64,000 bases of DNA from Pseudomonas sp. ACM7 (GTDB taxonomy: Bacteria > Pseudomonadota > Gammaproteobacteria > Pseudomonadales > Pseudomonadaceae), in contig NZ_CP024866.1 in the NCBI RefSeq assembly GCF_004136015.1, positions 6,400,861 to 6,464,860 of the forward strand, given 5' to 3'. Positions within the stretch are counted from its first letter, which is position 1. Every line of letters starts with the position of its first letter. A program made the translations under genes and the position numbers. A model generated the notes under the pieces. That model was not told the origin of the DNA, made no database searches, and was given only the letters and a program-made list of their open reading frames with translations. Of the stretch, positions 20,283 to 38,520 are shown in pieces.

Positions 20283-20293
20283 ACACGCAACAC

Positions 20294-20455
20294 TCACGCC
20301 AGTCGCTGCGCAACAAAATTGATAAAGGCTTTCAATTTTGGCAGTGATTTTCTCGAGCGTGGATACACCATCTGTACCGGCTTGGGCGGCGGCGCGTAGG
20401 CGTCCAGGATCCGCACGAGTTCACCTTTGGCCAACGCGGCCGACACCAGAAAATC
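20294..20455 (-). pseudogene. 3' remnant of a LysR-family regulator
   Basis: The leftward frame ends with a typical LysR substrate-binding C-terminus (PDFLVSAALAKGELVRILDA, then PVQMVYPRSRKSLPKLKAF). About the last 55 residues match. Everything upstream, including the HTH, is missing, and the frame runs into sequence that codes for another protein on the opposite strand. The fragment is clearly truncated rather than a short gene. Confidence 0.8.
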
Positions 20456-20899: not shown

Positions 20900-21111
20900 C
20901 GGTTAATCGTCGCGGGTCAGTACTTCCTGCCATTGACTTCTCTCGATTGATTTTCCTATTGAGAGAAACACGTGCATTTGTAACAACAAGACGAGTTTCA
21001 GACCCGTCCTACAGCCATAGGATGCAATCCTGAGTTCTCACCAAGATATGAAAAATGCTCTGATTAAAGCTAAAAAAATCGATAACAAGGGCAACGTTCC
21101 AGGAGTAAAAA

Positions 21112-21447
21112 GTGGGCCTTCTCTACCAGGATCCATCAATGAGCCACGAGGAAGCGACGAGGCTCCTTGCTAGCGATGTAGAAACGAACGTTATTGCAGC
21201 ATTGGTTTCAATAGGCCTGAATGAACAGGACAAAACCTGGGCTCAGAACACTTGCCTCAAGTACCTCGCAAGTGAGATCGAATCGATTGCAGCAACCGCC
21301 ATCACCGCGCTTGGTCACATAGCCCGCAGGCATGGCGATCAGGATACGAAAATGGTGCTCCCGGCACTCGAAAGTGTGAAGTACAAATTCCCCTTCTTGG
21401 AAGGAGTTGTTATGGACACCCTTGACGACATCGACGCATTCACCTGA
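21112..21447 (+). CDS. Small HEAT-repeat protein, possible immunity protein
   Basis: A 111-residue, mainly alpha-helical acidic protein with two to three HEAT-like repeats (HEEATRLLASDVETNVIAAL; AATAITALGHIARRHG; LPALESVKYKFPFLEGVVMD). The start is GTG at 21112 with AGGAG six bases upstream. A leader of about 100 AT-rich bases precedes it. Small HEAT proteins of this type are often found beside polymorphic toxins as putative immunity proteins. No toxin gene is adjacent here, so that role is inference. A terminator follows. Confidence 0.75.
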   Translation: MGLLYQDPSMSHEEATRLLASDVETNVIAALVSIGLNEQDKTWAQNTCLKYLASEIESIAATAITALGHIARRHGDQDTKMVLPALESVKYKFPFLEGVVMDTLDDIDAFT

Positions 21448-21481
21448 ATCACCGTGGCGTGGTGACTTGATCAATGTTCCA

Positions 21482-21520
21482 AAAAAACCGCCCTTTCTGC
21501 GAGCAGATAGGGCGGTTTTT
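21482..21520. terminator. Bidirectional rho-independent terminator
   Basis: AAAAACCGCCCT and AGGGCGGTTTTT flank a 12-base loop. A-tract and T-tract on the two sides allow termination of the HEAT gene (rightward) and the FKBP gene (leftward). Confidence 0.88.
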
Positions 21521-21542
21521 GTCATTTCAGCTCATCCGCCAA

Positions 21543-21881
21543 TCAATCATCACGCGTCAGCACTTCCAGCAATTCAATCTCAAAGATCAGGTTCGAATTC
21601 GGCCTAATCGCACCCATAGTCCGCTCGCCATAGGCCAAATGCGCTGGTACCACCAGCTTGCGCTTGCCGCCGACCTGCATCCCCGTAATCCCCTGATCCC
21701 AACCTTTGATCACCCGACCAGTGCCGATTACGCACTGAAAAGGTTTACCACGGCTGTAGGAAGAATCGAATTCAGTGCCGTCTTCCAGCCAGCCACGGTA
21801 CTGCGTGGTGATCAGCGCGCCTTTGACGGCGGCTTTGCCGTCGCCCACCTGGATATCGATTACCTGAAGCTCGTCATTCAT
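21543..21881 (-). CDS. FKBP-type peptidyl-prolyl cis-trans isomerase
   Basis: A compact 112-residue FKBP domain without signal peptide, hence cytoplasmic. Active-site blocks are YRGWLEDGTEFDSSYSRGKP, VIGTGRVIKGWDQGITGM, LAYGERTMGAI and LIFEIELLEV. It catalyses prolyl bond isomerisation during folding. ATG 21881 was taken as start because the domain begins there; an in-frame GTG at 21890 is possible. Nothing ties it functionally to its neighbours. Confidence 0.92.
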   Translation of the reverse strand: MNDELQVIDIQVGDGKAAVKGALITTQYRGWLEDGTEFDSSYSRGKPFQCVIGTGRVIKGWDQGITGMQVGGKRKLVVPAHLAYGERTMGAIRPNSNLIFEIELLEVLTRDD

Positions 21882-21997
21882 TGCTTGCACTCGTGTGTTC
21901 GTTTGCCCGATAGGCTGGTTAATTGCATCGACTTGAGGAGTTCAGGACTCTGACGTTGAGCCAGCCAACGGTATCTTGAGGTCCAGGACTGCCATGA

Positions 21998-22651
21998 CTA
22001 TTTCCGACTCATAAAGTCAGCGCTAAAGTCTTGTGTATTCACAAAACCAAGCGCATGTGGTTTTTTATCATTCTCGCCAAATAACATGAATAGCGAAGAG
22101 GTATAGGGTGGTTTTTCAGGTGCATGCACATTCAAATTTTTTTCGATTTGCCGAATGCAACTGCTGTGCGTAACCAGGATCAGGTTGTGTCCTTTACGCT
22201 TAGTTTCAACCGACTTTTGCAGCATGATACCTCTGCAGGACGCAAGCCACTCCTGATCTTCAATTTCATGGTTAAACATAAAGGTGGCTGTCTGCTTGGT
22301 CCTCGTCAGGGGGCTGGTAAAAATATCTGTCTTATCAAGACCGAGCTTTTGATATTGCTCGCCCAACTCCACTGCAACGTCCTTACCCCTTGTGGTAATG
22401 CCATCTGGGGCATTCAGGCAGGGAGCACTCGATTGATCGCAGCGCTCCGCGTGGCGAATCAGGACAATAACTTCTCCACTGGCCCATGCCGATTTTAGAT
22501 TGGTAATTTCCAAGGACGTACTGTGAGCAAGATTGGGCAGTCGAGGCGTTCTGAATAGAAAGTAGGCTCCTGTTATACAAAGCACGATGGCGAGCGCGGC
22601 CAAAAGCACTTTTTTGCTGCGCCAATTCAACCCAGTGAAAGACAACGACAT
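21998..22651 (-). CDS. Histidine phosphatase, Ais/PmrG-like (LPS heptose phosphatase type)
   Basis: About 217 residues. A membrane anchor or uncleaved signal at about residues 15-33 is followed by a histidine-phosphatase domain. The phospho-His motif is VLIRHAERCD, and SPLTRTKQTATFMF and LVTHSSCIRQIE supply the other catalytic residues. It resembles the Ais/PmrG group, which removes phosphate from LPS core heptose in the periplasm of enterobacteria. A second in-frame ATG at 22666 would add five residues. It is divergent from the retropepsin-like protease gene. Confidence 0.82.
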   Translation of the reverse strand: MSLSFTGLNWRSKKVLLAALAIVLCITGAYFLFRTPRLPNLAHSTSLEITNLKSAWASGEVIVLIRHAERCDQSSAPCLNAPDGITTRGKDVAVELGEQYQKLGLDKTDIFTSPLTRTKQTATFMFNHEIEDQEWLASCRGIMLQKSVETKRKGHNLILVTHSSCIRQIEKNLNVHAPEKPPYTSSLFMLFGENDKKPHALGFVNTQDFSADFMSRK

Positions 22652-22814
22652 AATGCTAGACCCCATCCAAAGCGTGGCTGATTAAGTCGAAAGCTTGCCC
22701 GACGGACCGTGAAGAAGTCGTTGGTTTGGTCACTGGCAATCAAGAAGTGCGTGTTAACGGATTCTTGACGGTACTTTATGCAGACTGATGCTTCGAATCC
22801 TGGAGGAGCTTCAT

Positions 22815-23348
22815 ATGGCACGCTCAATAGCAAAATGGCTCGCAGCATCCGTTCTTGGACTATTACTGATACAGCCGGCATTCTCCGCGAATAAAAGCCC
22901 ATCGAAGGTCTTTGGCTGGGTTGAGGAAGGTGTGTTGATGCCCGAAAACATTTCGGTGAAGGTCAAGCTCGACACAGGGGCATTGACTTCCTCAATGGAT
23001 GCCAAGGACATCGCGCCTTTCCGGAAAGACGGTGAAAAGTGGGTTCGCTTCAATGTTGAAGTGAAAGACAGCAACACGGGAAAGCTGGTCACTGCTCCGT
23101 TCGAGCGTAAGGTTGAGCGTAATGTGAAAGTCCGGGGGGCCGGTGGTGCCGAGCACCGACCTGTGGTGCAAATGACAATATGCATTGGCGACCAGATTTA
23201 TAACGAGCAGTTTTCCTTGAAGGATCGAGGCAAGATGAATTATCCCGTGCTTATTGGGCGGCGTACCTTAGAAAATCTGGGGTTGGTGGATGTTTCCCAT
23301 ACCTTCACCATGGAACCTAAGTGCAGCAAAGAAGCTTCTGCCAAGTAG
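22815..23348 (+). CDS. Secreted retropepsin-like protease (RimB/'ATP-dependent zinc protease' family)
   Basis: A 177-residue protein. The cleavable signal peptide ends near QPAFSA and is followed by the family core FGWVEEGVL and VKLDTGALTSSMDAKDI. The LDTGA motif is the aspartyl-protease-like active site of this family. The later blocks GRRTLENLGLVDV are also typical. The start at 22815 has GGAGGAG upstream. It probably acts in the periplasm. It heads a rightward unit with the two-component genes downstream (112-base gap), so it may be their target or partner. Confidence 0.85.
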   Translation: MARSIAKWLAASVLGLLLIQPAFSANKSPSKVFGWVEEGVLMPENISVKVKLDTGALTSSMDAKDIAPFRKDGEKWVRFNVEVKDSNTGKLVTAPFERKVERNVKVRGAGGAEHRPVVQMTICIGDQIYNEQFSLKDRGKMNYPVLIGRRTLENLGLVDVSHTFTMEPKCSKEASAK

Positions 23349-23460
23349 TCCTCGATGGCGACCCGAGCGGGTCATGCAAAAAGGTTGTCGCTACGGGCGC
23401 TGCTTTCGCTCAAGTGGCGGCCGCATCGGCTCACCGATTTCCATGTATGAATGAGGTTAT

Positions 23461-24165
23461 TTGAGCCAAACCATGCGAATTTTGATTATTGAAGACAACT
23501 CGGACATCGTGGCCAACCTCTACGAGTATTTCGAGCCCCTCGGACACGAACTCGACAATGCCCGCACGGGACAGGGTGGACTGGCTCGGGTGGCTGAGCA
23601 GCGTTTCGACGTGATCGTGCTGGATGGCATGCTGCCAGGTCTGGATGGGTTGGAAGTGTGCCGACGGTTACGTGAAGAGCAGCAATGCAATACGCCAGTG
23701 CTGATGCTCACGGCACGAGACACGGTTCATGACAAGGTGAAAGGATTACAGGCGGGAGCCGATGACTACCTGGTCAAGCCCTATTCGCTGATTGAACTGG
23801 AAGCGCGGCTTCATGCGTTGGTGAGGCGAGCAAGTACACTAAGAACCGATCAGGTGCTGCGTTTTGGTGATCTGGAATTTGACCCCGGAACCTTTGAAGC
23901 GCGCCGCGCAGGACAGCGGGTCGAGCTGACGCCGTTCGGTTACAAGATGTTGGTGGCACTGTTGCGTGCAGCCCCAAGTCTGGTAACCCGTGAGGAGCTT
24001 GAACAAGAACTCTGGAAAGACGATCCGCCACTCAGCGATGCCTTACGAAGCCATATCCACGCCCTACGGCTGGCAATAGATAAATCCTTCCCTCAATCCC
24101 CTCCAATGCTTTTCACCGTGTCAGGGGTAGGTTATCGACTGGTCGACCACAATGTTTCAAAGTGA
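23461..24165 (+). CDS. OmpR-family response regulator
   Basis: A 234-residue regulator. The receiver domain has acidic E11-D12, phosphorylation Asp55 (VIVLDGMLPG) and the KP switch residue in YLVKPYS. A C-terminal winged helix follows (SDALRSHIHALRLAIDKS). A TTG start at 23461 fits GAGG five bases upstream; ATG 23473 (MRILIIEDN) is the alternative. Its 3' end overlaps the kinase start by 14 bases, so the pair is translationally coupled. Confidence 0.9.
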   Translation: MSQTMRILIIEDNSDIVANLYEYFEPLGHELDNARTGQGGLARVAEQRFDVIVLDGMLPGLDGLEVCRRLREEQQCNTPVLMLTARDTVHDKVKGLQAGADDYLVKPYSLIELEARLHALVRRASTLRTDQVLRFGDLEFDPGTFEARRAGQRVELTPFGYKMLVALLRAAPSLVTREELEQELWKDDPPLSDALRSHIHALRLAIDKSFPQSPPMLFTVSGVGYRLVDHNVSK

Positions 24166-25390
24166 CTCGTTACGCGGTCGCATGGTCGCTGCCTATGTGT
24201 TGCTGGCAGTCATCATCGTTGGCTTTTTCACGGGCTCCGCTTTCTTTGTCGTCGCGAAGATCGAGAAGGAGCTTATCGATAACCGACTCGTGCGCGCAGC
24301 CGATCTTTGGGCCGCAGATTCTTTTCATGTGGTGCAGTCACAAACCCTCGATCTCAGCTTTTTCAAAGGTCCGCTGATTCCGCAACCTCTGCAAACGTTA
24401 GGGCTTGGCACTCACGAAATGAAGTTGAACGGACGGGGACTGCACGTTCTGATCGGTGAGGCCAATGGTGAGCGCTATGCCGTGGTGGATGACCAAAGTG
24501 ACTTTGAGTCGATCGAATCCTCCTCCTACATTACCTTGGGCATTGCGTTCCTGGGGGGCATTGGATTAGCCATCTTGATTGGTAGAGTCAGCGCAAACCG
24601 GGTGATCCTGCCGCTGACCAAGCTGGCTTCTTCGGTTCAGGACAAGCATACGACAGGCAGGCTTCCCGGCCTCGATGCCACTGACGAGCTTGGTGTACTG
24701 GCGAGGGCTATCGATGATCGAACCAACCAGTTGAGCTATGCCTTGCAGCGCGAACGCTGGTTCACTGCCGACGTCAGCCACGAGCTTCGTACCCCTCTGA
24801 CGATCATGCTCGGCGCAGCGGAAGTGCTCACCAGCCGTTTGCAGGATCGCCCGGACCTTCTGGTCATGACCGAACGTATTCGACGTAATGCCGCGGAAAC
24901 CGCGCAGCAGGTCGGGGCCCTGCTGCAACTGGCCCGAGTGCCGGAAATTACCGACCTCGTCTTGATCAACCTGCGTCCCCTGATTGAACGTGAGCTGGAG
25001 CGTTGCCAGCCACTGCTCCGTGGAAAGGCCCTGACACTCAACCTCTTCTGCACTGAGGAGGTTTCGGTACGAGCCATTCCTGAGCTGGTCACTATCGCGG
25101 TCAGCAATCTGCTACGTAATGCTTGTCAGCACACGGAGCAAGGCATCATCACCATTTACTTGAACTCATCTCAAATTGTTGTGGAGGACAGCGGTACGGG
25201 TTTACCCGATGCGGTACAAGCCCGCCTCTTTGATCGGTTTGTTCGAGGCGATGATGATTTCACGGGTGGTTCGGGTTTGGGCTTATCAATCGTCAAACGT
25301 GTTGTAGATCACCTTGGATGGAGAATTCGACATGAGCCCAACCCGAATGGCGGCAGCCGTTTCACCTTGCAGCTTCCCGATGTTGTGTAG
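24152..25390 (+). CDS. Membrane sensor histidine kinase
   Basis: A 412-residue kinase with two membrane segments (about 11-33 and 127-145) around a short periplasmic domain of about 90 residues. A HAMP-like linker and a HisKA domain follow, with His210 in FTADVSHELRTPL. The HATPase_c domain shows NLLRNACQHT, VEDSGTGLP and GGSGLGLSIVKRV. It is the partner of the overlapping response regulator. The signal is unknown; the small sensor domain suggests a periplasmic ion or envelope cue. Confidence 0.9.
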   Translation: MFQSDSLRGRMVAAYVLLAVIIVGFFTGSAFFVVAKIEKELIDNRLVRAADLWAADSFHVVQSQTLDLSFFKGPLIPQPLQTLGLGTHEMKLNGRGLHVLIGEANGERYAVVDDQSDFESIESSSYITLGIAFLGGIGLAILIGRVSANRVILPLTKLASSVQDKHTTGRLPGLDATDELGVLARAIDDRTNQLSYALQRERWFTADVSHELRTPLTIMLGAAEVLTSRLQDRPDLLVMTERIRRNAAETAQQVGALLQLARVPEITDLVLINLRPLIERELERCQPLLRGKALTLNLFCTEEVSVRAIPELVTIAVSNLLRNACQHTEQGIITIYLNSSQIVVEDSGTGLPDAVQARLFDRFVRGDDDFTGGSGLGLSIVKRVVDHLGWRIRHEPNPNGGSRFTLQLPDVV

Positions 25391-25483
25391 TTTTCCAGCG
25401 ACCGCAAAATTGACACACCGCACGCATACAGATTGATCCGTCAGAAATCGACCCGCACTCCCTACCATAAGCAAGAGCACCGA

Positions 25484-25873
25484 ATGAAAGGCATCCTTGA
25501 ACACCTACGTCGCTGGGCTAAAAATCTCAAGCGACAAACCATGGTTCTGTGGTTTTGTTATCAGCATCCACAAACCCCATGGCTGCCCAAGTGGATCTCA
25601 GTTTTTGTGGTGGCTTACGCACTGAGTCCAATCGACCTCATTCCAGATTTCATCCCGGTATTGGGCTATTTGGACGACGTAATCATTCTGCCGCTCGGCA
25701 TTCTGCTCGCTATCCGATTGATGCCACCGCTTGTGCTTGAGGAGTGCCAGCTAAAGGCTAGCGAGTGGGAGGAAAGCCATGTGAAGCGCCCAGTGAGTAA
25801 AGTGGCGGCGGTGCTCATCGTTTTGATCTGGCTCGCTGTTGTTGCAGGTGTGTGGTGGGTTTACTTTCGTTGA
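25484..25873 (+). CDS. DUF1232 (YkvA-like) membrane protein
   Basis: A 129-residue protein with the YkvA signature YALSPIDLIPDFIPVLGYLDD in the middle, two hydrophobic segments there and a C-terminal membrane helix. ATG 25484 follows AAGAG. It lies 93 bases after the kinase and is probably co-transcribed. DUF1232 proteins have no established activity. They often sit near envelope or metal-stress genes. Confidence 0.85.
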   Translation: MKGILEHLRRWAKNLKRQTMVLWFCYQHPQTPWLPKWISVFVVAYALSPIDLIPDFIPVLGYLDDVIILPLGILLAIRLMPPLVLEECQLKASEWEESHVKRPVSKVAAVLIVLIWLAVVAGVWWVYFR

Positions 25874-25927
25874 GTATAAAGCGGTACTTTTCATTGCATT
25901 TACGTACAACAAGCTAAAGCACTGGTC

Positions 25928-25962
25928 GAGGTAGGAGGTAGGAGGTAGGAGGTAGGAGGTAG
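25928..25962. repeat. Tandem 7-base repeat, five copies of GAGGTAG
   Basis: Five perfect head-to-tail copies lie in the 98-base gap between two convergent genes. On the leftward strand it reads CTACCTC. It could vary by slipped-strand mispairing but lies outside coding sequence. Confidence 0.95.
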
Positions 25963-25971
25963 GTAAGACGA

Positions 25972-27607
25972 TCATCGGATTTGACGACAGGCCATGGACA
26001 GCACAATCGCACGACCATCCGTCCAGAATGGGTCTCCCGCAGCATTCATTCCTCGTAGCGGCTGTGCCACGTGAACGCTTCCTTCCTGCTTTGCCCCAAC
26101 ACGCGTGAGATCGGTCACGATGAGCGCGCGCTCATGATCGATAGCGGGGTCAATGTGGTGCGTCGGGAGATGGAGGCTCGGCGAGATTTCTATACCCATG
26201 TCAAAGCTGGCGGTTGCTACCCACACAGGACGACAACTAGGCGCAAGGCAATATGACGTCTGCCACAGGCGGGTGTGATGCCGCCGTTGTATGCTTGGGG
26301 AACCTGTATCCGGTTTCTCAAATGTGAGGTCTTGTGGGCGGTCCGAAAAAAAGGCCGGCGTAGCTGGACCGGTTGGATCGGGAAGGTTTCGAAGCGCAGC
26401 GAGGCCTTCCTTGACCACCCGCAGTGGGGTTGGTGAATCGGCACGTGCCCATCCGGCGCGCGTAAAGGCATTCAAAATGCTCTTCCTCATCCCCGACAAA
26501 GACAAGAGAAATAGGCTCCATTTTTCCTCCGACCAAGTCCTCCGACCAACGAGGAAGTTCGGGTGGAAAAAAGGTTCGCAGCGCGTGGATGTCAAGCAAA
26601 TGCGTGGCTGAATGAGGCTTATTCGGGATGGTTTCGGTCTGACTCATGAGTAGGACTGTGGCCCCCACTGCAAGAATTAGGACACTTTTGCCACCCATAG
26701 AAAGGGCGTTGGCGCTGAGGGGCACGTGAAGTGTGTCGACCCACCGAATAGAATGGTTGTAATGGAGGAAAAACAGTAGTGATGCGAGAAGGATGAGCGC
26801 CAAACCGAGGCTGCCAAGGAGATCGGAAGGCCAGTGCACGCCAAGATAGAGGCGAGAAAGACCAATACCTACGATGACCAGGAGCAGCAGCGTGATACCA
26901 AGCGCTCGCGCACCGCGACGTACTTGGCTGCTCAACAGCAGCGCGGCGAGCAACCCATACACGACAGTGCCCGAGAGCATATGCCCTGAGGGGAAGCCCG
27001 GCTCATGCACCCGGACAATGGCATCCATTGGCCGCGCGTAGCTGAAGAGCGCTTTCAGAATGGTCGAGATGAGGCCCGAGCCGGCGAGAGCGAGCATGAA
27101 GGTGGCTGCGAGTCGCGGCTGATCTCGCGCAAGAGCAAGCAAGGCAAGGCCGGAACACAGCAGGGATAACACCGTAGTGCTTCCCAGCTCTGTGAGAGCG
27201 AGCATGAGCCAAGTCATTCCTGTTGAGCGGAAGAGCGGGACCGTGTTGTGCAAGCGGATGTCGAGAATCACAAGGGGGTCATTTGCCACGATTTCCTGCA
27301 ACACGCTAAGGAAGACCCACAAACCTAGAAGCATGCCAAGGCCGGCAGTGGTTGCCCGCAGGCCCCAAGGACTCTGCGGATTGAGGCGGTGCTCCAGGAA
27401 CACGGCAGTGCCAGGGAAGCGCTGCCGAAGACCAGCAATAACAGGCCTTTGTGCCAACTTTGCGCCAATAGAGCTAATAATTGCTGCCATGGGTTGCCAG
27501 AGTTGACGCCGGCGATCCAGAAAGAGCAGCACAATAAGAATCAAACCTGCAGGGACAACAACCAGTGCCAAAAACAAAAATGTGTAAAAAATGGCTGCGG
27601 AGAGCAT
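25972..27607 (-). pseudogene. PAP2 phosphatase with LssY_C domain, interrupted by a frameshift
   Basis: The first about 380 residues encode a membrane PAP2 phosphatase: KALFSYARP, FPSGHMLSGT and SRLYLGVHWPSD give all three motifs. An LssY_C domain starts after the last membrane helix. At about 26455-26461 the reading frame breaks within GCGCGC. Removing one base joins ECLYA to AGWARADSPTP and restores the LssY_C domain (RPQDLTFEKPDTGSPSIQRR; THHIDPAIDHERALIVTD) down to the stop at 25972. It is thus a recent one-base lesion or a sequencing error. The PAP2 part could still be made. It is the last gene of the leftward cluster and overlaps the gene upstream. Confidence 0.82.
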
Positions 27608-29684: not shown

Positions 29685-29756
29685 TCGTGGGCTGCCTATA
29701 GAGTACCGGTGATGAAGCGATCAAAGTGCGTACCTTCCCGAGAGGTCGCACAACCG

Positions 29757-32700
29757 TTATGAAGCAGGTGCCACGGCAGTGGGAAACTCCTCGGTGCGCT
29801 TTTCAAAGCGTCCAAAGTGCAAAGCCAAGGTTGGTAGCACCAATAGATTGAGTGCTGTCGAGGTCACTAAGCCACCCAGGATAACTATAGCCATAGGCCC
29901 TTCGATTTCATTGCCAGCAGCGCCACTGGCGAGCGCCAGAGGTAGCAGTCCCAAAGCGGTCACCACGGCCGTCATCAGGATCGGCACCAGTCGCTCGGCG
30001 GCACCCCTTCGAGCCGCATCCGACCCCCATGTCATACCTTCTTCATTCACCAGATGTGAGTAGTGCGAGATGAGCATGATGGAGTTTCGCAGCGTGATAC
30101 CAAACAGGGTGACAAACCCGACAAGCGATCCCAATGACAAATTTCCACCGCACACCAACACGGTCAACACGCCACCTACCAGGGCGAAAGGCAGGTTCAC
30201 GAGGACTAAGACCAACGCACGCATGCTTTTGAGGGCGAGGAACAAAAGCAGCATGATCCCAATGATGGCAACCGCTGTGTAAACCAGTAAGTCTTGTTGT
30301 GATTGCACACGTGCTTGCTCTTCTCCAGCAAACAAGACATAGGTTCCCTTGGGTAGGGTGACCTCCTTGTTAATTAACCGTTGAGCCTCCTGAACGAAGT
30401 CACTCACCGCCCGGCCATGTACTGCGGTCGAGACTGTTTGTAGACGTTGGCCGCCGCTGTGCATGATTTGGTAACGGCTGGTGGTTTGAGTGATCAGGGC
30501 TAGTTGATCGAGAGGCACCGTTGTTCCGGCTCTGTTACGTAGCAGCAGTGAACCGACAGTCGCGATGCTGTGATGGGCCGTGGGAGTCAACGAGACGGCG
30601 ACGTCATAAGTCTGATTCCCCTGATAGATTTGGCTGGCGGTCACTCCGTCGTAAGCCACTTGAATCGCGTCCATCACATCAACCGGCTCGAACCCCCAAT
30701 GTGTCAATTGCTCAGGCCGCAGCCTAATGGTCAATTGCGGCACATGCTGGGCGGACTCGACTCTCAGGCCGATGGTGCCAGGGATTCGACCTATCACCTG
30801 GGCGATTTCCTGGGCTTTGCTGTCCAGCACATCCAGGTCAGGGCCAAAGACATTGATAACGACCGGCGCGGTGACGCCCGAGATGCTTTCGTCCACCCGC
30901 TCAGTCAGGAAGGTGTTCACCGACGTCGTCAGCCCTGGAAAACTGGCCAATACTTGTTGAATACGCGCCACGGCCTGGGTTTCTTCAGCAGCAGACAAGG
31001 TATTCAAATCCACTTCGAACTCACTGACGTGGACGCCGGTCGGGTCGACCACTTCACTGGCTCGCCCTGCGCGCTGCGATACCAGTCGCACGCCGGGGAC
31101 TGTACTCAGCTCCTGCGCTACACGGTCGCCCACACGCATGGATTCGGTCAAAGAGGAGCCTGGGGCCAACGCCATATGGATGAGGTAATGCCCCTCCTTC
31201 AATTCTGGTATGAAGTTACCGCCAAAAAACGGCAGCGCGGTGATCGCCACCGTGCAGAGAATGACGATCATCCAGACTATTGATCGAGAGTGCGACTCGA
31301 TACTGGCGAGTAACTTCAGATAACGAGCCTTCAGTCGCTGCACCAACTTTGGCTCTTCCGATTGAAGTGGCCTGGTGGTCAACAACATAAACGCCAGCGC
31401 TGGCGTGACCGTTAGGGCCACCACAAGGGATGCCAAAATCGCCAGGATGTAGGCGAGACCCAAGGGCGCAAAGAGTTTCCCGGCGATCCCTGACAGCGCC
31501 AGAACGGGCAGGAAAATCAATGCAACAACCAAGGTGGCATATACCACCGCACTACGGACTTCGAATGAGGCGCGCAATACAACCAGGGCCGGTGATATGG
31601 GGTTCTTCAGCGCTTGATTTTGGCGCAGCCGACGGAAGATGTTCTCCACATCGACCACCGCATCGTCCACGACCTCTCCCAAGGCAATGGCCAGGCCGCC
31701 CAAGGTCATGGTGTTGAGGCTCACACCGAAGTGATGGAGCACGATCACCGCCGTTAACAAGGAAAGCGGAATCGCCGTAGCGGAGATGATTGCAGTGCGG
31801 ATATTGAGCAAGAACAGAAACAGCACCAGGACAACTAACACGCCTCCCAATAACAGTGCCGTTTGCAAGTGACCAATCGCGGTTTCGATAAACCTGGCTG
31901 GGCGGAAGATGTCTGGATGCAGGCTCACCTGTTCTGCTTCGAGCGCAGGTTTCAAACTGTCCAGGGCGCTTTCCACATGACTGGAAACGCTCATCATGTC
32001 GGCGCCGTATTGGCTTTCCACCATCAGCGACACCGCCGGCTTACCCTCGATTGCCGCAGCGCCGACTGCGGGAGCAGGCCCATAGGCCACCGTGGCGACA
32101 TCGCCCAAGCGTACGGCGACACCACTCTGGTAGTTGAGCACCGTTTGAGCCAACTGCTCGGGTGTTACGGTCTGACCCTCGGTATTCAAGACGATGCGCT
32201 GGTTAGCGGTTTCCAGAAAACCCGCGCCTCCAACCCCCGTTGCGCGCTGGGCAGCGCTCAACACGTCTTGAAGAGAGAAACCGTATTGCACCAGCTTTTT
32301 GGGATCCGCCTGAATCTGAAACTGTTTTAGATCGCCACCGAATACGATCACGTCCGCCACGCCGGGCACGCGCAACAATTGCGGTTTTATCGTCCACTCC
32401 GCGAGTGTGCGCATCTCCATCAGCGAGCGGGTGTCGGAGGTAATACCCGCGACAAGAGTGATGCTGGTCGATGACGTTAATGGCAATAGCGCGGGCGTTT
32501 TGACGCCGTGCGGGAGAATACCGGTGAGCGTACTGAGTCGCTCCGCAGCCAGTTGTCTGGCTCGGTATATGTCAGCTCCATCCTTGAAGGTCAGCGTCAC
32601 CATGGACAGCCCTGGTAACGATTTGGATCGCATGCTCGCCAGCCCCAGGGTGCCACCCATTGCGTTTTCGACCGGCTGGGTGACCAACATTTCAACCTGC

Positions 32701-32876
32701 TCGGACGATAACCCGGGAGCTTCGGTTTGAATCACCGCTAACGGTGGAGCGAACTCGGGGAAAACATCTTGCCGGGCCTGAGTCAGAGTGTAGATGCCAT
32801 AACCTGCCAGCAGACAAGCGAGGGCGATAACGACCCCTCGGAAGCGCACAGCGAATCGGATAATTGAATTCAACAT
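29757..32876 (-). CDS. RND efflux pump, HME-like (CusA/CzcA type)
   Basis: A 1039-residue inner-membrane proton antiporter with two halves of six membrane helices and large periplasmic loops. TM4 contains ALGEVVDDAVVDVEN, giving acidic residues D404, D405, D409 and E411 of the proton relay as in heavy-metal RND pumps. It forms a tripartite system with the adaptor and TolC protein upstream, 21 bases from the adaptor. Heavy-metal efflux is the default expectation, but the company of lipid phosphatases points to an envelope-active compound instead. Substrate undetermined. Confidence 0.9.
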   Translation of the reverse strand: MLNSIIRFAVRFRGVVIALACLLAGYGIYTLTQARQDVFPEFAPPLAVIQTEAPGLSSEQVEMLVTQPVENAMGGTLGLASMRSKSLPGLSMVTLTFKDGADIYRARQLAAERLSTLTGILPHGVKTPALLPLTSSTSITLVAGITSDTRSLMEMRTLAEWTIKPQLLRVPGVADVIVFGGDLKQFQIQADPKKLVQYGFSLQDVLSAAQRATGVGGAGFLETANQRIVLNTEGQTVTPEQLAQTVLNYQSGVAVRLGDVATVAYGPAPAVGAAAIEGKPAVSLMVESQYGADMMSVSSHVESALDSLKPALEAEQVSLHPDIFRPARFIETAIGHLQTALLLGGVLVVLVLFLFLLNIRTAIISATAIPLSLLTAVIVLHHFGVSLNTMTLGGLAIALGEVVDDAVVDVENIFRRLRQNQALKNPISPALVVLRASFEVRSAVVYATLVVALIFLPVLALSGIAGKLFAPLGLAYILAILASLVVALTVTPALAFMLLTTRPLQSEEPKLVQRLKARYLKLLASIESHSRSIVWMIVILCTVAITALPFFGGNFIPELKEGHYLIHMALAPGSSLTESMRVGDRVAQELSTVPGVRLVSQRAGRASEVVDPTGVHVSEFEVDLNTLSAAEETQAVARIQQVLASFPGLTTSVNTFLTERVDESISGVTAPVVINVFGPDLDVLDSKAQEIAQVIGRIPGTIGLRVESAQHVPQLTIRLRPEQLTHWGFEPVDVMDAIQVAYDGVTASQIYQGNQTYDVAVSLTPTAHHSIATVGSLLLRNRAGTTVPLDQLALITQTTSRYQIMHSGGQRLQTVSTAVHGRAVSDFVQEAQRLINKEVTLPKGTYVLFAGEEQARVQSQQDLLVYTAVAIIGIMLLLFLALKSMRALVLVLVNLPFALVGGVLTVLVCGGNLSLGSLVGFVTLFGITLRNSIMLISHYSHLVNEEGMTWGSDAARRGAAERLVPILMTAVVTALGLLPLALASGAAGNEIEGPMAIVILGGLVTSTALNLLVLPTLALHFGRFEKRTEEFPTAVAPAS

Positions 32877-32897
32877 GATGTATTCGCTGCCGTCTGG

Positions 32898-33962
32898 TTA
32901 GTCGTCACATTCGGGGTCTTTGCAAGCCGATGCGGTGATTGGCGGACGCTGCTCTTCGGATAACAGCAGTTGCGCACCATGCACCACGACACGATCACCG
33001 GACTCAAACCCGGTGCTGACCAGGTACCCATTGTTGTAGGGGGTTTGGTCTGCGACAGGACGGCGGGTAAACCGGTCGTTTGCAATTTGCACATACGCCC
33101 ACGGCTGCCCACCAAACCATAGGATGGCGGCCTCAGGTATGACGAGACTGGTGCTGGTTGGCGTGGGTAATGGCAAATAGGCAACCACTTTGCTACCGAC
33201 TGGAAGGGTCGCCGCCGCTCGGTAAAGGTATGCACGGCCTTCAGTCGAAGGGTCGACTTGGGGCGAGACTGAAATGAGGTGAGCCGTTTCCCGACGATGT
33301 TCGCTGGACTCTACCGCAATCAGTTCTGGAGCGGCCAAATCAACACCGAGGGGGAGGACAACGCGCAAAAGCATGTCCTCGCGGTTCAACAGTCTGCGCA
33401 ATAGCGGAGCGTCTTGCGCTCCGATCACGCCGGCCAATGGCGCACCAAACTGTTGGAGCGCACTATTGCGTACCGACTGAATGTTGGCACTCGTTGCTTG
33501 TAGCTTGGTCTTGTCTGTATTCCATGTGACTTGCGAGGCTTGCAGCACCTTCAAGGACACGCTCTGGTTAGCTTTGTACAGCGCGAGGTTGCGCTCATAT
33601 TCTTGACCCGAGGCCGAAGCGGCAGACTGTGCCGCCTCTGAGTCTGCTTGAGCCATAGAGTAACGAGTGCTCAGATCATTAAGCCCCTGCACATCAAGCA
33701 CACTGCCGTAAGCAAGATGTTCCACTTGATTCTTGGATGCAGTTATCGGCTCACTCTGGATACCACTGATTGTCTGGGTCGTTTCATCCAGCGTGACGAT
33801 GGTTAAACCTCCTTCGGTTGTGACCCGTGTAGGGGGCGCTACCGCAGTTACAGGTGCAACCTGCATGGCTTGATAAGAGAAGAAACCTAAAGCGCCTAAC
33901 CCGGCAGCGGCTATCACCGCCAGGGCGATCCGCGAGGTTTTGCTACGAAAGGGTGTGTTCAT
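32898..33962 (-). CDS. RND periplasmic adaptor (membrane-fusion protein), atypical
   Basis: A 354-residue protein with an N-terminal membrane anchor (about 12-30), an alpha-hairpin-like Ala/Gln-rich region (about 95-165) and beta-barrel/membrane-proximal parts (DPSTEGRAYLYRAAATLPVG; IPEAAILWFGGQPWAYVQ). A clear lipoyl-domain half-motif pair flanking the hairpin is not visible. The C-terminus ends ACKDPECDD, with two cysteines that could bind metal. Its ATG overlaps the upstream TolC-type gene stop by four bases (ATGA). It links the pump to the outer-membrane factor. Confidence 0.82.
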   Translation of the reverse strand: MNTPFRSKTSRIALAVIAAAGLGALGFFSYQAMQVAPVTAVAPPTRVTTEGGLTIVTLDETTQTISGIQSEPITASKNQVEHLAYGSVLDVQGLNDLSTRYSMAQADSEAAQSAASASGQEYERNLALYKANQSVSLKVLQASQVTWNTDKTKLQATSANIQSVRNSALQQFGAPLAGVIGAQDAPLLRRLLNREDMLLRVVLPLGVDLAAPELIAVESSEHRRETAHLISVSPQVDPSTEGRAYLYRAAATLPVGSKVVAYLPLPTPTSTSLVIPEAAILWFGGQPWAYVQIANDRFTRRPVADQTPYNNGYLVSTGFESGDRVVVHGAQLLLSEEQRPPITASACKDPECDD

Positions 33963-35335
33963 TTTCGAATGACAGCCTCTGTTGACTGGGCTTGCAGTGA
34001 GATTCCATCGAGCGGTTGCTGAATGGCATTTTCAAGTTGACTGATGGCTTGCTGAACTTGAACCACTGCATCAACGTGGGTCATTGCATCGACATTCACG
34101 GCACGGCGTGACCGCGATAGCGCCAGTCGGTCTATCGCGCCTAAATCAAAGGAGCGTTGGTCAGATTGAAAGGCGGCTGTTCGAGTCGCCCCCTGGGTGT
34201 CGATGAGCGCCAGGTTTTGCGTAGCCAGGCGATAGTGCTGTAGAGCGCTGTCTGTCTGATTGATCGCTTGGTCTTGAAGTGCTTCGACGTGGATGGCAGC
34301 TTCCTTGCGGTGCGCTTCGGCTTCCGCGATAGGCCCTTCATTACGGTTGAATAGGGGGAGCGTGATGCCTGCGGGTGTCACGCTGTACTTGTTCACCCCT
34401 TGGTCGAACGAGTACCCGAGCCCGAGTGACAGGTTCGGATATTGCCGTGCAACTTCCAGTTGGAGAGCGGCTTGGCTCGCTTCGTACTCGGCCAGGGCGC
34501 CCAGGATGTCAGTGCGATTCAGAATGGTTTGACGGCGGGCGGTGTTATCAGGGATCTGCGGAGTCAGGCTCTCGAAATCGCTCAGATCTATCTTGATGGG
34601 CTCAAGAGACCTGAGAGGAACCCCAATGGTCTGAGCAATCAATGCTTTGGCGTCCAGCATCAGTTTTTCGCTATTCGCCAAGTTGCTACGATCACGCTCC
34701 AGGATGATCTGCTCCTGGCTCAATTCGAACGTCGAGGCCGACCCCAACGAAAGTTGCTTCTCCAGCATGGTCACTATGTTCTGCTGGATGTCGACCTGGC
34801 GCTCGATAATCGCGTGGTGCTGGCTGGCGGCGTAAAAGTCGAGCAACGCGCTGCGAAGACGACTTCTGATCTGCCAGGCGATTTGAGCGATATTCAAACG
34901 GGCAGCGTCTGAGAGCTGTTGCGCTTGCGCCACTCGATACCCACGCTTACCGGCAGTCTCAATCGGAATGTCGAGGGCCAATCCATACGTCCACGGCTTT
35001 ATCGGCTGATCTGCGTACTGCAGTGGCAACGACAAGGACGGATTGGGTCGTTGATTAGCCGTTTCTGTCGCCGCCTCACCGCTGGCAAACATGGCGCGCA
35101 CCGCGTCCAGCTCAGGACTGTAGTAGTAAGCGGCCAGAGTTAAGGTGTTCAGACTCCAGAGAGGGGTAGTGTTGGGGCGGTGTGCAGTGATAAAGCGCTG
35201 AAGCTCTGGGTTAGTCAGTGTCCGCTCTTCATAGGCAGCCATCATTTTCAGGGGCGCCAGTGGTTGTGGTTGATAACTCGCACAGCCGGTGAGCAGCATT
35301 ACCACCGTGATAAAACAAAGTTTATGCATTCGCAT
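33959..35335 (-). CDS. TolC-family outer-membrane efflux lipoprotein
   Basis: About 458 residues with a lipoprotein signal (VVMLLTGCAS lipobox) and two OEP-type repeats rich in long helices (AYYYSPELDAVRAMFASGEA; YPNLSLGLGYSFDQGVNKYS). It is the exit duct of the tripartite pump. ATG 35335 was chosen so that the signal peptide starts at the N-terminus; ATG 35329 is two residues further on. The stop overlaps the adaptor start. The nearest family is that of CzcC-like factors. Confidence 0.88.
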   Translation of the reverse strand: MRMHKLCFITVVMLLTGCASYQPQPLAPLKMMAAYEERTLTNPELQRFITAHRPNTTPLWSLNTLTLAAYYYSPELDAVRAMFASGEAATETANQRPNPSLSLPLQYADQPIKPWTYGLALDIPIETAGKRGYRVAQAQQLSDAARLNIAQIAWQIRSRLRSALLDFYAASQHHAIIERQVDIQQNIVTMLEKQLSLGSASTFELSQEQIILERDRSNLANSEKLMLDAKALIAQTIGVPLRSLEPIKIDLSDFESLTPQIPDNTARRQTILNRTDILGALAEYEASQAALQLEVARQYPNLSLGLGYSFDQGVNKYSVTPAGITLPLFNRNEGPIAEAEAHRKEAAIHVEALQDQAINQTDSALQHYRLATQNLALIDTQGATRTAAFQSDQRSFDLGAIDRLALSRSRRAVNVDAMTHVDAVVQVQQAISQLENAIQQPLDGISLQAQSTEAVIRK

Positions 35336-35397
35336 TTTCTTTGAGACCAAAGTGGCGGAGTACACAGAAACTCGCGAATCAAGCATTGCCTCTCCCC

Positions 35398-35994
35398 CTA
35401 TTGATGAGTGTTGCGGCGAGCCGCTGGTGGAAAAACTCGTTGGTATAGGCCCTCAAGAACGTCGAGCAAATGCTCGCTAAGATGTCTCCAACTCAGCACC
35501 TGTGGTACCAACCACGCGCTTATCAAAGAGACCAGCAATGACCCGGCAATATCGAATGGAAAATGCACGCCTAAATAGATACGTGCCCAGCCGACTAATG
35601 TACCCAGTAGCAAAATCAGCACGCCAAGTTTGCGCAGCGATACCAGCATCAGAGCCATGGCTAACGTGAACATCACAGTGGCGTGATCGCTGGGGAAAGA
35701 GGACTCAGGGGCGTGCTCCAGGAAGTTTTGTCCTAACCCCAGCATGAAGGGACGCGGATGGAACCAAAGGCTACTGATCAGCAGATTGCACCCAAGCGCG
35801 AACACGATGCTCAGCGTGGCAGTTACCGCAGCAGCTCGGTATTGGCGTGTACCTCGCAGCCACAATCCGATCAGCAATAGCGGTACCCCGGTGATGAGCC
35901 ACTGCGCCAGAAAAGTCGCACATAGGCGCATTTCCGCCAAGGAGTGCACGCTGGCGTTGATAGCCAAGAACAGAGTGCGATTGAGCTCTTCCAT
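35398..35994 (-). CDS. PAP2 phosphatase, BcrC-like undecaprenyl-diphosphatase
   Basis: A 198-residue membrane protein with about five to six helices. PAP2 motifs are LWFHPRPFM, SFPSDHATV and ARIYLGVHFPFDIAG, giving the catalytic histidines. The first-motif lysine is not at its usual place, as also seen in some BcrC-type enzymes. It dephosphorylates undecaprenyl diphosphate at the periplasmic face and can confer bacitracin tolerance. It is the first gene of the leftward efflux cluster, 79 bases downstream of a PmrA/QseB-type box. Confidence 0.88.
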   Translation of the reverse strand: MEELNRTLFLAINASVHSLAEMRLCATFLAQWLITGVPLLLIGLWLRGTRQYRAAAVTATLSIVFALGCNLLISSLWFHPRPFMLGLGQNFLEHAPESSFPSDHATVMFTLAMALMLVSLRKLGVLILLLGTLVGWARIYLGVHFPFDIAGSLLVSLISAWLVPQVLSWRHLSEHLLDVLEGLYQRVFPPAARRNTHQ

Positions 35995-36072
35995 GGGGAG
36001 ACCCGTTCAGGAGACTAGGAAGCACCACGTTGTGATCACGGTGCGAGTGATACGCACCATAGTGGTTGCTTC

Positions 36073-36089
36073 CTTAAGTCCACCTTAAG
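36073..36089 (-). promoter_or_regulatory. PmrA/QseB-type response-regulator box
   Basis: Perfect direct repeat CTTAAG-N5-CTTAAG, itself palindromic within each half. This is the known binding pattern of PmrA and QseB response regulators. It lies in the 282-base gap between the divergent PAP2/efflux genes and the QseB/PmrA-like regulator gene. A TATGGT element about 11 bases downstream on the leftward strand could be the -10. Regulation of the efflux cluster, and possibly autoregulation, is inferred. Confidence 0.75.
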
Positions 36090-36276
36090 GTTGACGCTGG
36101 CAGTCTTATCGTCCGTGTAGGCCCAAGGGGTCGCGGGGTTGAGTTAAGAATGCTGATAGGCCGAGTGGGGTCAGAATCATCTATGACATGGGCGCGATAT
36201 GCGCGGAGTCAAGACTTCGGCACACTGTGTGGTACTCCAGTGAAGCGCTGACTGATGTGAGAAGAGGGATCAGGCG

Positions 36277-36939
36277 ATGCGAATATTACTTGCAGAAGAT
36301 GACCCGATGATCGGCAGCGGCTTGCAAAAAGGGCTGCGCCAGGGAGGGTACACAGTGGATTGGGTCACGGACGGCAAAGCTGCCGTCCTCGCTTTGGAAA
36401 CCAACCCATATGCGTTGCTTCTACTCGACCTGGGACTTCCGCGCCAGGATGGCATGGAGGTGCTCACGGTTCTGCGTCAACACGATGAGAGCTTACCGGT
36501 AATCATAATCACCGCCCGCGACTCGCTACCAGATCGGATTGCTGGCCTTGATCATGGTGCTGACGATTACCTGGTTAAACCGTTTGCCATCGAGGAATTG
36601 GTTGCACGCATTCGCGCCGTCAGCCGCCGTCAATCCGGGCGTGTGCAGACGGAGCTTCGGGGTGGCCCGTTGCGACTTGATCCGGTACGACACCTGCTGT
36701 GGTTACGCAACGAGCCTGTCAGCCTGTCGGCCAAAGAATATGCGTTGCTGCACGAGCTGATGAAGGAGCCGGATGCGGTGATATCCCGCGAGCAGTTAGA
36801 GGATCGCCTGTACGGTTGGGGAGATGAAGTGGGCAGCAATGCCGTGGAAGTTCACATCCATAATCTTCGCAAAAAACTCGGGGCCGAGGTCATCCGTACT
36901 GTTCGAGGTGTCGGATATCACATTGGAGAGGACGCATGA
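36277..36939 (+). CDS. OmpR-family response regulator, QseB/PmrA type
   Basis: A 220-residue regulator. The receiver has D8-D9, phosphorylation Asp51 (LLLDLGLPRQDG) and K in YLVKPFAIEE. The winged helix contains YGWGDEVGSNAVEVHIHNLR, a block characteristic of the QseB/PmrA/TctD group. Consistently, a CTTAAG-N5-CTTAAG box lies upstream. Its stop overlaps the kinase ATG by four bases. It is most likely the activator of the divergent phosphatase/RND cluster. Confidence 0.92.
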   Translation: MRILLAEDDPMIGSGLQKGLRQGGYTVDWVTDGKAAVLALETNPYALLLLDLGLPRQDGMEVLTVLRQHDESLPVIIITARDSLPDRIAGLDHGADDYLVKPFAIEELVARIRAVSRRQSGRVQTELRGGPLRLDPVRHLLWLRNEPVSLSAKEYALLHELMKEPDAVISREQLEDRLYGWGDEVGSNAVEVHIHNLRKKLGAEVIRTVRGVGYHIGEDA

Positions 36940-38267
36940 GTTCGCTCCGTCGGCGTCTACTGTTATGGCTGCTACCAGCCACTTTTCTGGCTGGACTGCT
37001 GGCAAGTATCGGCACCTATTGGGGGGCTGTCCTTGAACTGGATGATCTGCTCAACGACCAAATGCGTTACCTCGCAGAACACATCAATGTGGATCCTGGT
37101 GAGCGTGTTGTACTGACGGATACAGGCAATAAACCCAGTGCATTGCGTGATGATAATGCTGACGAAGTGCTGCTTCAGGTTTGGAGCGCAGGGGTTTTGA
37201 ACTTTACGACCGACTCCGCGCTCTTACTCCCTCCACCGCAGCAAACTGGACTGAGTGATGTTCAGGTCGGGGATCAAACTTGGCACACGTTCGTGAGCCA
37301 GCGCGGTGATAAGGTTTTCCGGGTGGCTCAAGCTCAAAATAGGCGTTGGGAAAAGCTCGCGGGTTTAGCCGTGCACCTATTGTGGCCAGTGGTATCAATG
37401 ATTCCCTTGTTAGCTCTGTTCTTGTGGTTTGGTATCAGCTACGGGCTAAAACCACTGCGAACAGTGGCGACAGAACTGTCGGAGCGCAACGTGAATAGCC
37501 TGCAGCCTATCGCTTCGAAAGAGTTGCCTGGAGAAGTCAAACCTCTGGTCGATGCCCTCAACGATTTGCTGGAACGGCTGGCAAATGCTTTCACCATGCA
37601 AAAATACTTCATCGCTGATGCAGCGCACGAGCTACGCACTCCAGTGGCAGCACTCAGCATTCAAGTGGAGTTGGCACAGCGGGCCACTCAGGAAGAAGAC
37701 CGACAGGTATCGCTGTCTGAGGTACAGGCGGGTGTCACGCGCCTTACTCACTTGACACAACAGCTATTGACCTTGGCGCGCCTGGAGCCTGATGTGCAGT
37801 CGCCAGTCATGCAGAACATCGAACTGTCCACTCTATGCAAGTCGGTGATCACTGATCAGGTTCGCAGGGCTGAAGCCTCAGGCATCGATCTGGGGCTGAG
37901 CGAGCATGCCGCATCCAGCATTTCGGGGGATCCTGAAACGCTGCGTATCCTGCTCAATAACCTGATCGACAACGCCATTCGTTACGCGGGGGCCCACGCA
38001 AAGATTGACTTGGCAGTGCGCGATACCGACCAAGGGGTCGTGCTTGAGGTGTGCGACAACGGCCCAGGAATAAATGCGTCGGAGCGTGAGCGGGTGCTTG
38101 AGCGATTCTATCGAGGCAACAATCAAAGCGGCTCTGGTAGCGGTCTGGGGCTTTCAATTGTTAAAGCGATTGCAGAGCAACACGGAGCTCAAGTGTTACT
38201 CGATATCGGAGCAAATGGCTTGGGACTGCGGGTACAGATCATTTTTCCGTCTATATCGGGAAAATAG
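36936..38267 (+). CDS. Sensor histidine kinase, QseC/PmrB type
   Basis: A 443-residue membrane kinase. TM1 is at about 8-28 and TM2 at about 145-168, around a periplasmic domain of about 110 residues. It has a HAMP-like linker, a HisKA domain with His231 in IADAAHELRTPVAALS, and a HATPase_c domain (NNLIDNAIRYAG; VCDNGPGIN; GSGSGLGLSIVKA). It is coupled to its regulator by an ATGA overlap. Several acidic residues in the sensor domain (DDLLNDQ, RDDNADE) could bind cations, as in PmrB, but no ExxE motif was identified. Confidence 0.92.
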   Translation: MSSLRRRLLLWLLPATFLAGLLASIGTYWGAVLELDDLLNDQMRYLAEHINVDPGERVVLTDTGNKPSALRDDNADEVLLQVWSAGVLNFTTDSALLLPPPQQTGLSDVQVGDQTWHTFVSQRGDKVFRVAQAQNRRWEKLAGLAVHLLWPVVSMIPLLALFLWFGISYGLKPLRTVATELSERNVNSLQPIASKELPGEVKPLVDALNDLLERLANAFTMQKYFIADAAHELRTPVAALSIQVELAQRATQEEDRQVSLSEVQAGVTRLTHLTQQLLTLARLEPDVQSPVMQNIELSTLCKSVITDQVRRAEASGIDLGLSEHAASSISGDPETLRILLNNLIDNAIRYAGAHAKIDLAVRDTDQGVVLEVCDNGPGINASERERVLERFYRGNNQSGSGSGLGLSIVKAIAEQHGAQVLLDIGANGLGLRVQIIFPSISGK

Positions 38268-38520
38268 GCAGAGTAGAAAAGCACTCTCTAAAAGGCTCAG
38301 TGCGATGAGATAACTCCTCAGCTATTTGTGGTCAGTGCGAATGCAATCGGGTGGTCAAGTCAATGCAATTATCAAATAGGCGTAATGGGGGTAATGGGCG
38401 CCGTTTTCCCAGAAATGCGCCCAATTGGCAACCGATTCGATCTGTTTCTGGCATTGACCGTGAACTAAGATATGCAACACCTAACCCCACGGATCAATAC
38501 GCCATGATGGCAACCCCTGA

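Follow-up and report, generated by a model that had tools for sequence, protein, structure and literature searches.

DedA proteins and PAP2 phosphatases have mostly been studied as core genes. Both are central to the current question of how undecaprenyl phosphate (C55-P) is recycled, flippase activity toward C55-P having been reported for DedA proteins. One of them, PA4029, binds C55-P; without it the minimum inhibitory concentration of fosmidomycin falls, and in an arn-overexpressing strain aminoarabinosylated lipid A becomes undetectable (PMC12893004). PA4011 of P. aeruginosa joins an N-terminal DedA to a C-terminal PAP2 domain and has low-Mg2+/PhoP-linked regulation (PMC12893004; PMC7916210), PA4010-PA4011 being PhoP-regulated (PMC7916210). 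The other systems closest to the present locus are the UppP-type PAP2 phosphatases YbjG and BcrC, the tripartite heavy-metal efflux (HME)-RND systems ZneCAB, CusCBA and CzcCBA, and the regulators PmrAB, QseBC and BqsRS. Here we describe a gene cluster in 64,000 nucleotides of Pseudomonas sp. ACM7 (GCF_004136015.1, contig NZ_CP024866.1, positions 6,400,861 to 6,464,860 of the forward strand; the whole stretch is called the window), in which an HME-like RND pump, a small PAP2 phosphatase and a fused DedA-PAP2-LssY_C protein lie divergent from a two-component system, TCS2 (response regulator RR2 and sensor kinase HK2). This cluster, module B, comprises:

27474..29684, minus strand: DedA (VTT)-PAP2-LssY_C three-domain membrane protein (Pfam; VTT is PF09335)
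29757..32876, minus strand: RND permease, HME (CusA/CzcA/ZneA)-like (ACR_tran 796 bits; TIGR00914 677 bits)
32898..33962, minus strand: divergent periplasmic adaptor (weak RND_mfp/CzcB and weak MexJ matches)
33959..35386, minus strand: TolC-family outer-membrane factor (OEP 101 bits)
35398..35994, minus strand: PAP2a, undecaprenyl-diphosphate phosphatase-like, YbjG/BcrC type (PRK11837 163 bits, cut-off 229)
36073..36089, plus strand: CTTAAG-N5-CTTAAG operator-like repeat, PmrA/BqsR type (pattern scan of window and genome)
36277..36939, plus strand: RR2, PmrA/QseB-type response regulator (PmrA model 247 bits, cut-off 330; best solved relative BasR/PmrA, 207 bits)
36936..38267, plus strand: HK2, QseC/PmrB-type sensor kinase (QseC model 241 bits, cut-off 475)
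25972..27607, minus strand: PAP2b gene, its LssY_C domain in a different frame (PAP2 in open reading frame (ORF) 26318-27607, LssY_C in ORF 25972-26595)

The original prediction, made from the window's letters, had named a leftward series PAP2-TolC-adaptor-RND-DedA/PAP2/LssY_C beside a divergent PmrAB/QseBC-type system, and had counted three PAP2 domains, one DedA domain and one histidine phosphatase; ORF, Pfam and NCBIfam scans found all of these present as named.

With a probability of about 0.5, module B is a horizontally moving cassette that combines cation-induced efflux with undecaprenyl-phosphate recycling, beside which a second set of genes, module A, has landed under another regulon. 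HK2 would sense envelope or cation stress, and RR2 would bind the repeat and switch on the divergent operon, probably itself too. The pump would then expel a toxic cation, most probably a metal ion. Meanwhile PAP2a and the DedA-PAP2-LssY_C protein would dephosphorylate undecaprenyl diphosphate on the periplasmic side of the membrane and carry the monophosphate back, so that the carrier pool might be kept up under stress while the pump clears the stressor.

Both modules lie in a real, well-bounded, accessory insertion of 16.5 kb in this Pseudomonas:

21901..38392, no strand: accessory insertion between native fkbp and PAS-GGDEF genes (empty sites in genomes G005 and G011; low G+C at third codon positions, GC3)

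In G005 homology ends at window position 21900 and restarts at 38393, the two ends lying 18 bp apart there; in G011 the fkbp and GGDEF genes are also direct neighbours, with 106 bp between matches. Since these genes adjoin in both genomes, the island spans about 21901-38392, not the 20900..38300 given by the original prediction, and fkbp (21543-21890) is native and outside it. The description of the block as AT-rich and codon-diverse was borne out: its G+C is 0.525-0.567, except for DedA-PAP2-LssY_C at 0.612, against 0.60 in the flanks; GC3 is 0.596 over 12 block ORFs and 0.728 over 37 flank ORFs; and the codon usage of the former lies further from the flank mean than that of the latter. No direct repeat of at least 16 nt was found linking the island ends, no integrase was found among the ORFs scanned, and the plasmid collection held no close DNA copy of the block, giving only three matches of 80-106 bp, all in RND genes. 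Assignment to phage defence was rejected, PADLOC run on six proteins having given no match. Module A (PmrG, RloA3, TCS1 and DUF1232) and module B (26.3-38.3 kb) share this island.

The partnership of pump and phosphatases recurs well beyond Pseudomonas. On B. cenocepacia pBCEN1232 and B. contaminans pB1701 the order is TCS-TolC-adaptor-RND-DedA/PAP2/LssY_C-small protein-MFS-PAP2, and pB1701 carries a further locus, in which RND and DedA/PAP2/LssY_C are separated by a P-type ATPase that is itself joined to PAP2 and LssY_C domains (this fusion, L062:12135-15908, is 1257 aa long). The Burkholderia ZCC plasmid carries TCS-TolC-adaptor-RND-DUF2127-MFS-UppP beside chrBA, without DedA-PAP2-LssY_C; a Massilia plasmid has MFS-DedA/PAP2-TCS divergent from TolC-RND, and on a Bradyrhizobium plasmid a PAP2 protein is the pump's sole phosphatase partner. 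In G212, from another class, DedA-PAP2-LssY_C (60%), PAP2, HK2 (65%) and RR2 (77%) stand divergent from adaptor and RND (80%); TolC was not detected on its 14.5-kb contig. Rhizobia carry pump-less sets of the order ChrB-MFS-PAP2-DedA/PAP2/LssY_C (including L027 and L030-L032).

A PAP2 or DedA-PAP2-LssY_C gene lay within 9 kb at 10 of 22 pump-clade loci and at none of 10 loci with RNDs of ~40% identity (Fisher p 0.013), the linked share being 3/3 in the genus, 1/10 in an even phylum sample and 6/9 in plasmid records. The ~40% controls were 10 of the 22 such matches in the phylum sample, and the plasmids examined were, for the RND, 8 records out of the 15 best listed (196 matched) and, for DedA-PAP2-LssY_C, 7 out of 30, one reached through its pump match. 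On an RND tree, a quick one with some long branches, the linkage label required about four changes, three of them forced by the starred branches, with gene orders differing; the label was clustered, only 1 of 500 shuffles being as low. Around 45 DedA-PAP2-LssY_C loci, an uneven sample, the same MFS gene was found at 16, a small UppP-like PAP2 at 15, a response regulator at 20, the pump at seven and a ChrB-like gene at six. By comparison, 20 genus control loci encoding DedA-PAP2 proteins (PA4011-like relatives) had the MFS gene, the small PAP2 or a pump-clade RND at 0/20 within ~20 kb, and a regulator at 2/20; PA4011 differs, too, in having no LssY_C. These locus counts leave out the broken or partial DedA-PAP2-LssY_C loci L018, L035 and L038-L048 and the duplicates L014, L028 and L037. 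Of 397 other genomes in the phylum sample, 10 had a close pump, 15 had DedA-PAP2-LssY_C and 1 had both, which is not significant alone; adjacency, not co-occurrence per genome, is the evidence for partnership. No paper on this gene combination was found in the literature searched, most subscription journals being outside its coverage.

Within the genus, module B reads PAP2a-TolC-adaptor-RND-DedA/PAP2/LssY_C, divergent from RR2/HK2. The pump was found in 3 of 249 genomes, the window's own included, with PAP2a and RR2/HK2 in 3/3 and DedA-PAP2-LssY_C in 2/3. DNA of PAP2a and TCS2 was present in 5 of the 249 (G000, which is the window's own genome, G006, G078, G134 and G622), in surroundings that differ in the loci read. 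P. mandelii OWC5 (L019) has module B in the same order at 85-97% identity, without PAP2b; G078 (L115) has PAP2a, TolC, adaptor, RND and TCS2 without DedA-PAP2-LssY_C; and G006 has PAP2a and TCS2 alone. A contig from a metagenome-assembled genome (L020, the same as G622 and L152) carries PAP2a and DedA-PAP2-LssY_C with a 78-bp RND remnant between them, which suggests loss of the pump and retention of the two phosphatase genes, an assembly error being possible in such a genome. A pump-less pair was also considered as the older form; for this contig, the one of its kind in Pseudomonas, the remnant argues for pump loss, and with pump-less sets present in rhizobia either form may have come first in the family. 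The empty-site genome G005 holds a broken DedA-PAP2-LssY_C copy elsewhere (G005:C1:1069658-1070595, L018), and the MFS partner of DedA-PAP2-LssY_C loci occurs at G000:C1:4321899-4323044 (L151; 59% to the P. mandelii and 74% to the Rhizobium one), with no other block genes within the 17 kb read.

The repeat, CTTAAG-TCCAC-CTTAAG, lies between PAP2a and RR2, at distances of 78 bp and 187 bp from their respective starts. It is the window's sole match at up to one mismatch, where 0.04 were expected, and the sole exact copy in the 6.6-Mb genome; the four sites with one mismatch found elsewhere do not exceed the yield of a control pattern. It stands upstream of PAP2a in 5/5 Pseudomonas loci (the window, L019, L115, L053 and L020), and in L102 a related repeat precedes an RR2 relative (53%) by 42 bp. 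The repeat, operator-like by its letters, also fits what we take to be the PmrA box. Its tandem TTAAG half-sites have the spacing of the BqsR operator, TTAAG(N)6TTAAG (PMC4682146), the form TTAAG-N6-TTAAG occurring at window 36074-36089, and RR2 is nearest to BasR/PmrA among solved structures. We infer that RR2 binds this putative PmrA/BqsR-type operator. From PmrAB, QseBC and BqsRS the present system differs in the single exact genomic copy of its repeat, in equivalog scores and in a sensor motif, the last two points being taken up below.

By its best models the RND pump is HME (metal)-like, not drug-like. The best match is TIGR00914 (CusA/CzcA) at 677 bits, under the cut-off of 701.45, so that the pump would work as an HME-RND although formal membership is narrowly missed, and the closest solved structure is ZneA. 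The residues aligned with ZneA D602 and E610, which we take to be functional site residues, are D and E. The motif in transmembrane segment 4 is ALGEVVDDAVVDVEN, where ZneA has DFGIIVDGAIVVMEN and CusA AVGAMVDAAIVMIEN. Gene order and gaps place adaptor and outer-membrane factor in the same predicted operon as the RND, which gives the tripartite layout of HME-RND systems, and a relative of the adaptor stands beside the RND at 22/22 pump-clade loci. Unlike in those systems, the adaptor gave no Pfam match and hence is without a CusB-type HMBD, and predicted lipid-carrier phosphatases are built into the cassette; the pump, phosphatases and repeat together make it a new variant of HME-type efflux.

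PAP2a has the PAP2 active-site motifs HPRP, PSDH and ARx5Hx3D, a set that we assume to be the BcrC-type form. It resembles the UppP-type phosphatases in that PRK11837 (YbjG) is the best model both for it and for four Burkholderia, Rhizobium and G212 counterparts, and differs in that all score below the cut-off (163 against 229 bits for PAP2a). In the DedA-PAP2-LssY_C protein the PAP2 motifs KX6RP, PSGH and SRX5HX3D are intact, and E31, D75, R121 and R127 of the DedA domain are invariant in a 15-sequence alignment; these presumably correspond to the functionally conserved E, D, R and R of the DedA C55-P flippases UptA and PA4029. In contrast to YbjG, BcrC, UptA and PA4029, the flippase-like and phosphatase domains are here fused in one chain, together with LssY_C. 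An AlphaFold model of this protein was mediocre (pLDDT 68), its sole significant match was the PAP2 phosphatase 5jki, and the model search gave nothing on LssY_C. Gaps from PAP2a through DedA-PAP2-LssY_C are short, -4 to 72 bp.

Copper and other metal genes surround several relatives. The genome's own second DedA-PAP2-LssY_C (86-87%; G000:C1:5517001-5537000, L013) has CopC-CopD on one side and an outer-membrane factor, CusB, CusA and CusF on the other; the cop/cus copper island that holds them also encodes a heavy-metal P-type ATPase and a multicopper oxidase. Copper, dmeF and chromate genes are annotated near plasmid relatives. Indium resistance of a Rhodanobacter required a DedA protein, YqaA (PMC8679861). 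ChrB-like genes occur at L069, L071, L109, L065 and L110, pump loci and MFS-PAP2-DedA/PAP2/LssY_C loci where no TCS was found.

These neighbours, like the metal-like RND, tell against a defence aimed at cationic peptides and polymyxin or at bacitracin-type drugs, in which the PmrA-like regulator would answer peptides or low Mg2+, the phosphatases would feed lipid A glycosylation with undecaprenyl phosphate and the pump would remove the drug. The cassette has no arn genes either. Such a role would nevertheless suit the PmrA/BasR-type regulator with its repeat, the BcrC/YbjG likeness of PAP2a, and the requirement of the DedA protein PA4029 for aminoarabinose (Ara4N)-based colistin resistance (PMC12893004). 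It would also suit the related pump on a Rhodanobacter plasmid, which adjoins an ArnT-like gene and a family 2 glycosyltransferase (GT2) gene, the latter with PgfS and ArnC as its best models, all scores being below cut-off. We regard it as possible, if doubtful, and the lipopolysaccharide or antibiotic role first proposed for the block is thus not the one best supported. The Rhodanobacter operon (R. thiooxydans, L064:3688-15791) is flanked by the GT2, the ArnT-like gene, GtrA and an MFS relative, and sits between Tn3-family transposases.

A number of results weigh against a cassette of cation-induced efflux and carrier recycling. The permease lacks the Met triad of CusA (residues 573/623/672), the aligned residues being H, V and E. 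RR2 and HK2 fall under the PmrA and QseC cut-offs (247 against 330 and 241 against 475 bits), and a motif scan of HK2 residues 26-160 found no ExxE or ExxxE, so that HK2 is without the ExxE motif discussed for the metal-sensing BqsS and PmrB (PMC12666569). The repeat was not found at G212 or the Burkholderia loci, nor at L016, L023, L025, L026, L036 and L041, all of which have RR2 relatives. PA4011 was judged likely not to be involved in C55-P flip-back (PMC12893004). Metal markers lay close to 9 of 42 other relatives, against none of 20 control loci of the DedA-PAP2 kind (p 0.047). This contrast is weak and is confounded by island versus core location; without ChrB 5 of 42 remain, three of these through ~40% P-type ATPases. 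The count excludes CusA matches of 25-28%, which are pump-clade RNDs or, in L036, another RND, and the three loci that supplied markers (L065, L105 and L106). As to linkage, the nine plasmid loci were picked from top matches and one of the six linked was fetched through its DedA-PAP2-LssY_C, while in the even phylum sample only one of the ten closest pump loci (at least 46% identity) was linked, which means that the link belongs to a sub-clade. Likewise, 38 of the 45 loci with DedA-PAP2-LssY_C lack such a pump within 9 kb, and the 15 drawn from the even phylum sample (G212 together with L089-L102, most of them 32-51% identical) had the MFS gene at none, a small PAP2 at two and the pump at one.

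Such figures, with 12 of 22 pump-clade loci (9 of 10 in the even phylum sample) having no phosphatase and DedA-PAP2-LssY_C so commonly without a pump, are what chance accretion would give, the phosphatases being passengers on metal islands and the pump working alone. That account is unlikely in view of the four or so linkage changes on the RND tree, three forced, with differing gene orders; it also leaves aside the short gaps, the one conserved repeat upstream of PAP2a and, assembly error permitting, the phosphatase pair that outlived its pump in L020/L152. The combined efflux and recycling cassette remains our preferred reading. A further step, which we consider unlikely, is that a mobile undecaprenyl-phosphate recycling machine, made of UppP and a one-chain phosphatase-flippase with LssY_C, was recruited several times by one RND sub-clade, as the pump's substrate would poison the lipid-carrier cycle, for example through metal-pyrophosphate complexes of undecaprenyl diphosphate (C55-PP). 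If true, efflux and carrier regeneration would form one unit, a new type of resistance. A mobile cassette tying a fused DedA-PAP2-LssY_C and a UppP to a metal-like pump, with a single conserved repeat in front, is a natural experiment on which stress requires both, and a probably dispensable system for studying the LssY_C domain.

To the left of module B, models confirmed the Ais/PmrG-like phosphatase, retropepsin, second TCS and DUF1232 protein that had been named there. These make up module A:

21998..22666, minus strand: PmrG/Ais-like histidine phosphatase (NF052369 PmrG 211 bits, cut-off 170)
22788..23348, plus strand: RloA3-type retropepsin-like peptidase (NF052264 248 bits, cut-off 210)
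23461..25390, plus strand: two-component system 1 (TCS1), RR1 and HK1 (Pfam Response_reg/Trans_reg_C and HisKA/HATPase_c)
25433..25873, plus strand: DUF1232 protein (PF06803)

The PmrG lipopolysaccharide heptose phosphatase model and the RloA3 retropepsin model both passed their cut-offs, the RloA3 family being described in PMC12239564. According to the original prediction, the whole block was one envelope-defence module. In that event the entire 16.5-kb island, with PmrG, RloA3, TCS1 and DUF1232, would be a single functional unit, which would agree with the presence of all genes in one insertion at similarly low GC3 and with the envelope action of the PmrG and RloA3 families (NCBIfam family names; Rlo phenotypes in PMC12239564). 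We hold this very unlikely, as none of PmrG, RloA3 and DUF1232 was detected within 9 kb at the remaining 21 pump-clade loci. Two of the other 148 genus genomes, G076 and G129, have close relatives of HK1 (77% and 54%), and neither appears among the strong DedA-PAP2-LssY_C matches or among the pump matches listed for the 249 genomes; in G076 DUF1232 again follows directly on HK1 (L059). PmrG-like genes are found in 107 of 149 genus genomes (E<=1e-25) and in at least 11 of the 149, including this genome at another place, they adjoin a different HK1-like kinase (32-34%), so that in this genus PmrG tends to neighbour a sensor kinase independently of the pump. Module A thus has no link to module B at the loci seen and looks like an unrelated passenger, which may answer to a separate regulon. 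The earlier single-module claim was half right: module B (PAP2a, pump, DedA-PAP2-LssY_C and TCS2, with its conserved repeat) coheres and recurs as an efflux and predicted undecaprenyl-phosphate cassette, and module A is not joined to it, HK1 relatives and PmrG occurring independently. A PmrG-like phosphatase and HK1-like kinase with an adjoining ArnT-like gene (33%) also lie at G000:C1:5717924-5720077 (L117).

At the left end of module B, PAP2b and its LssY_C, previously taken as one gene, do not form one open frame: the PAP2b frame exits before LssY_C is complete, and LssY_C continues in another frame. PAP2b is probably broken in its 3' part, to judge from the reading frames; our guess is a frameshift, and an assembly error or a programmed shift are alternatives, the three not being separable by comparison because a search with PAP2b gave nothing further in 149 genus genomes at E<=1e-40 and nothing in the plasmid collection at E<=1e-25. 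Close relatives of DedA-PAP2-LssY_C stop near residue 680, where here the frame continues into PAP2b; a conserved in-frame stop in that gene was considered and rejected, the TGA flags being these natural ends. Left of the island, a PLP-dependent-enzyme gene (window 20285-20899) looks truncated, what remains matching the C-terminal portion of the PALP profile alone, and G005 holds ~1.4 kb more between the pieces that match this region. A strong terminator-like inverted repeat with 18-nt arms (94%) lies at window 21483-21520, between a 111-aa ORF and fkbp.

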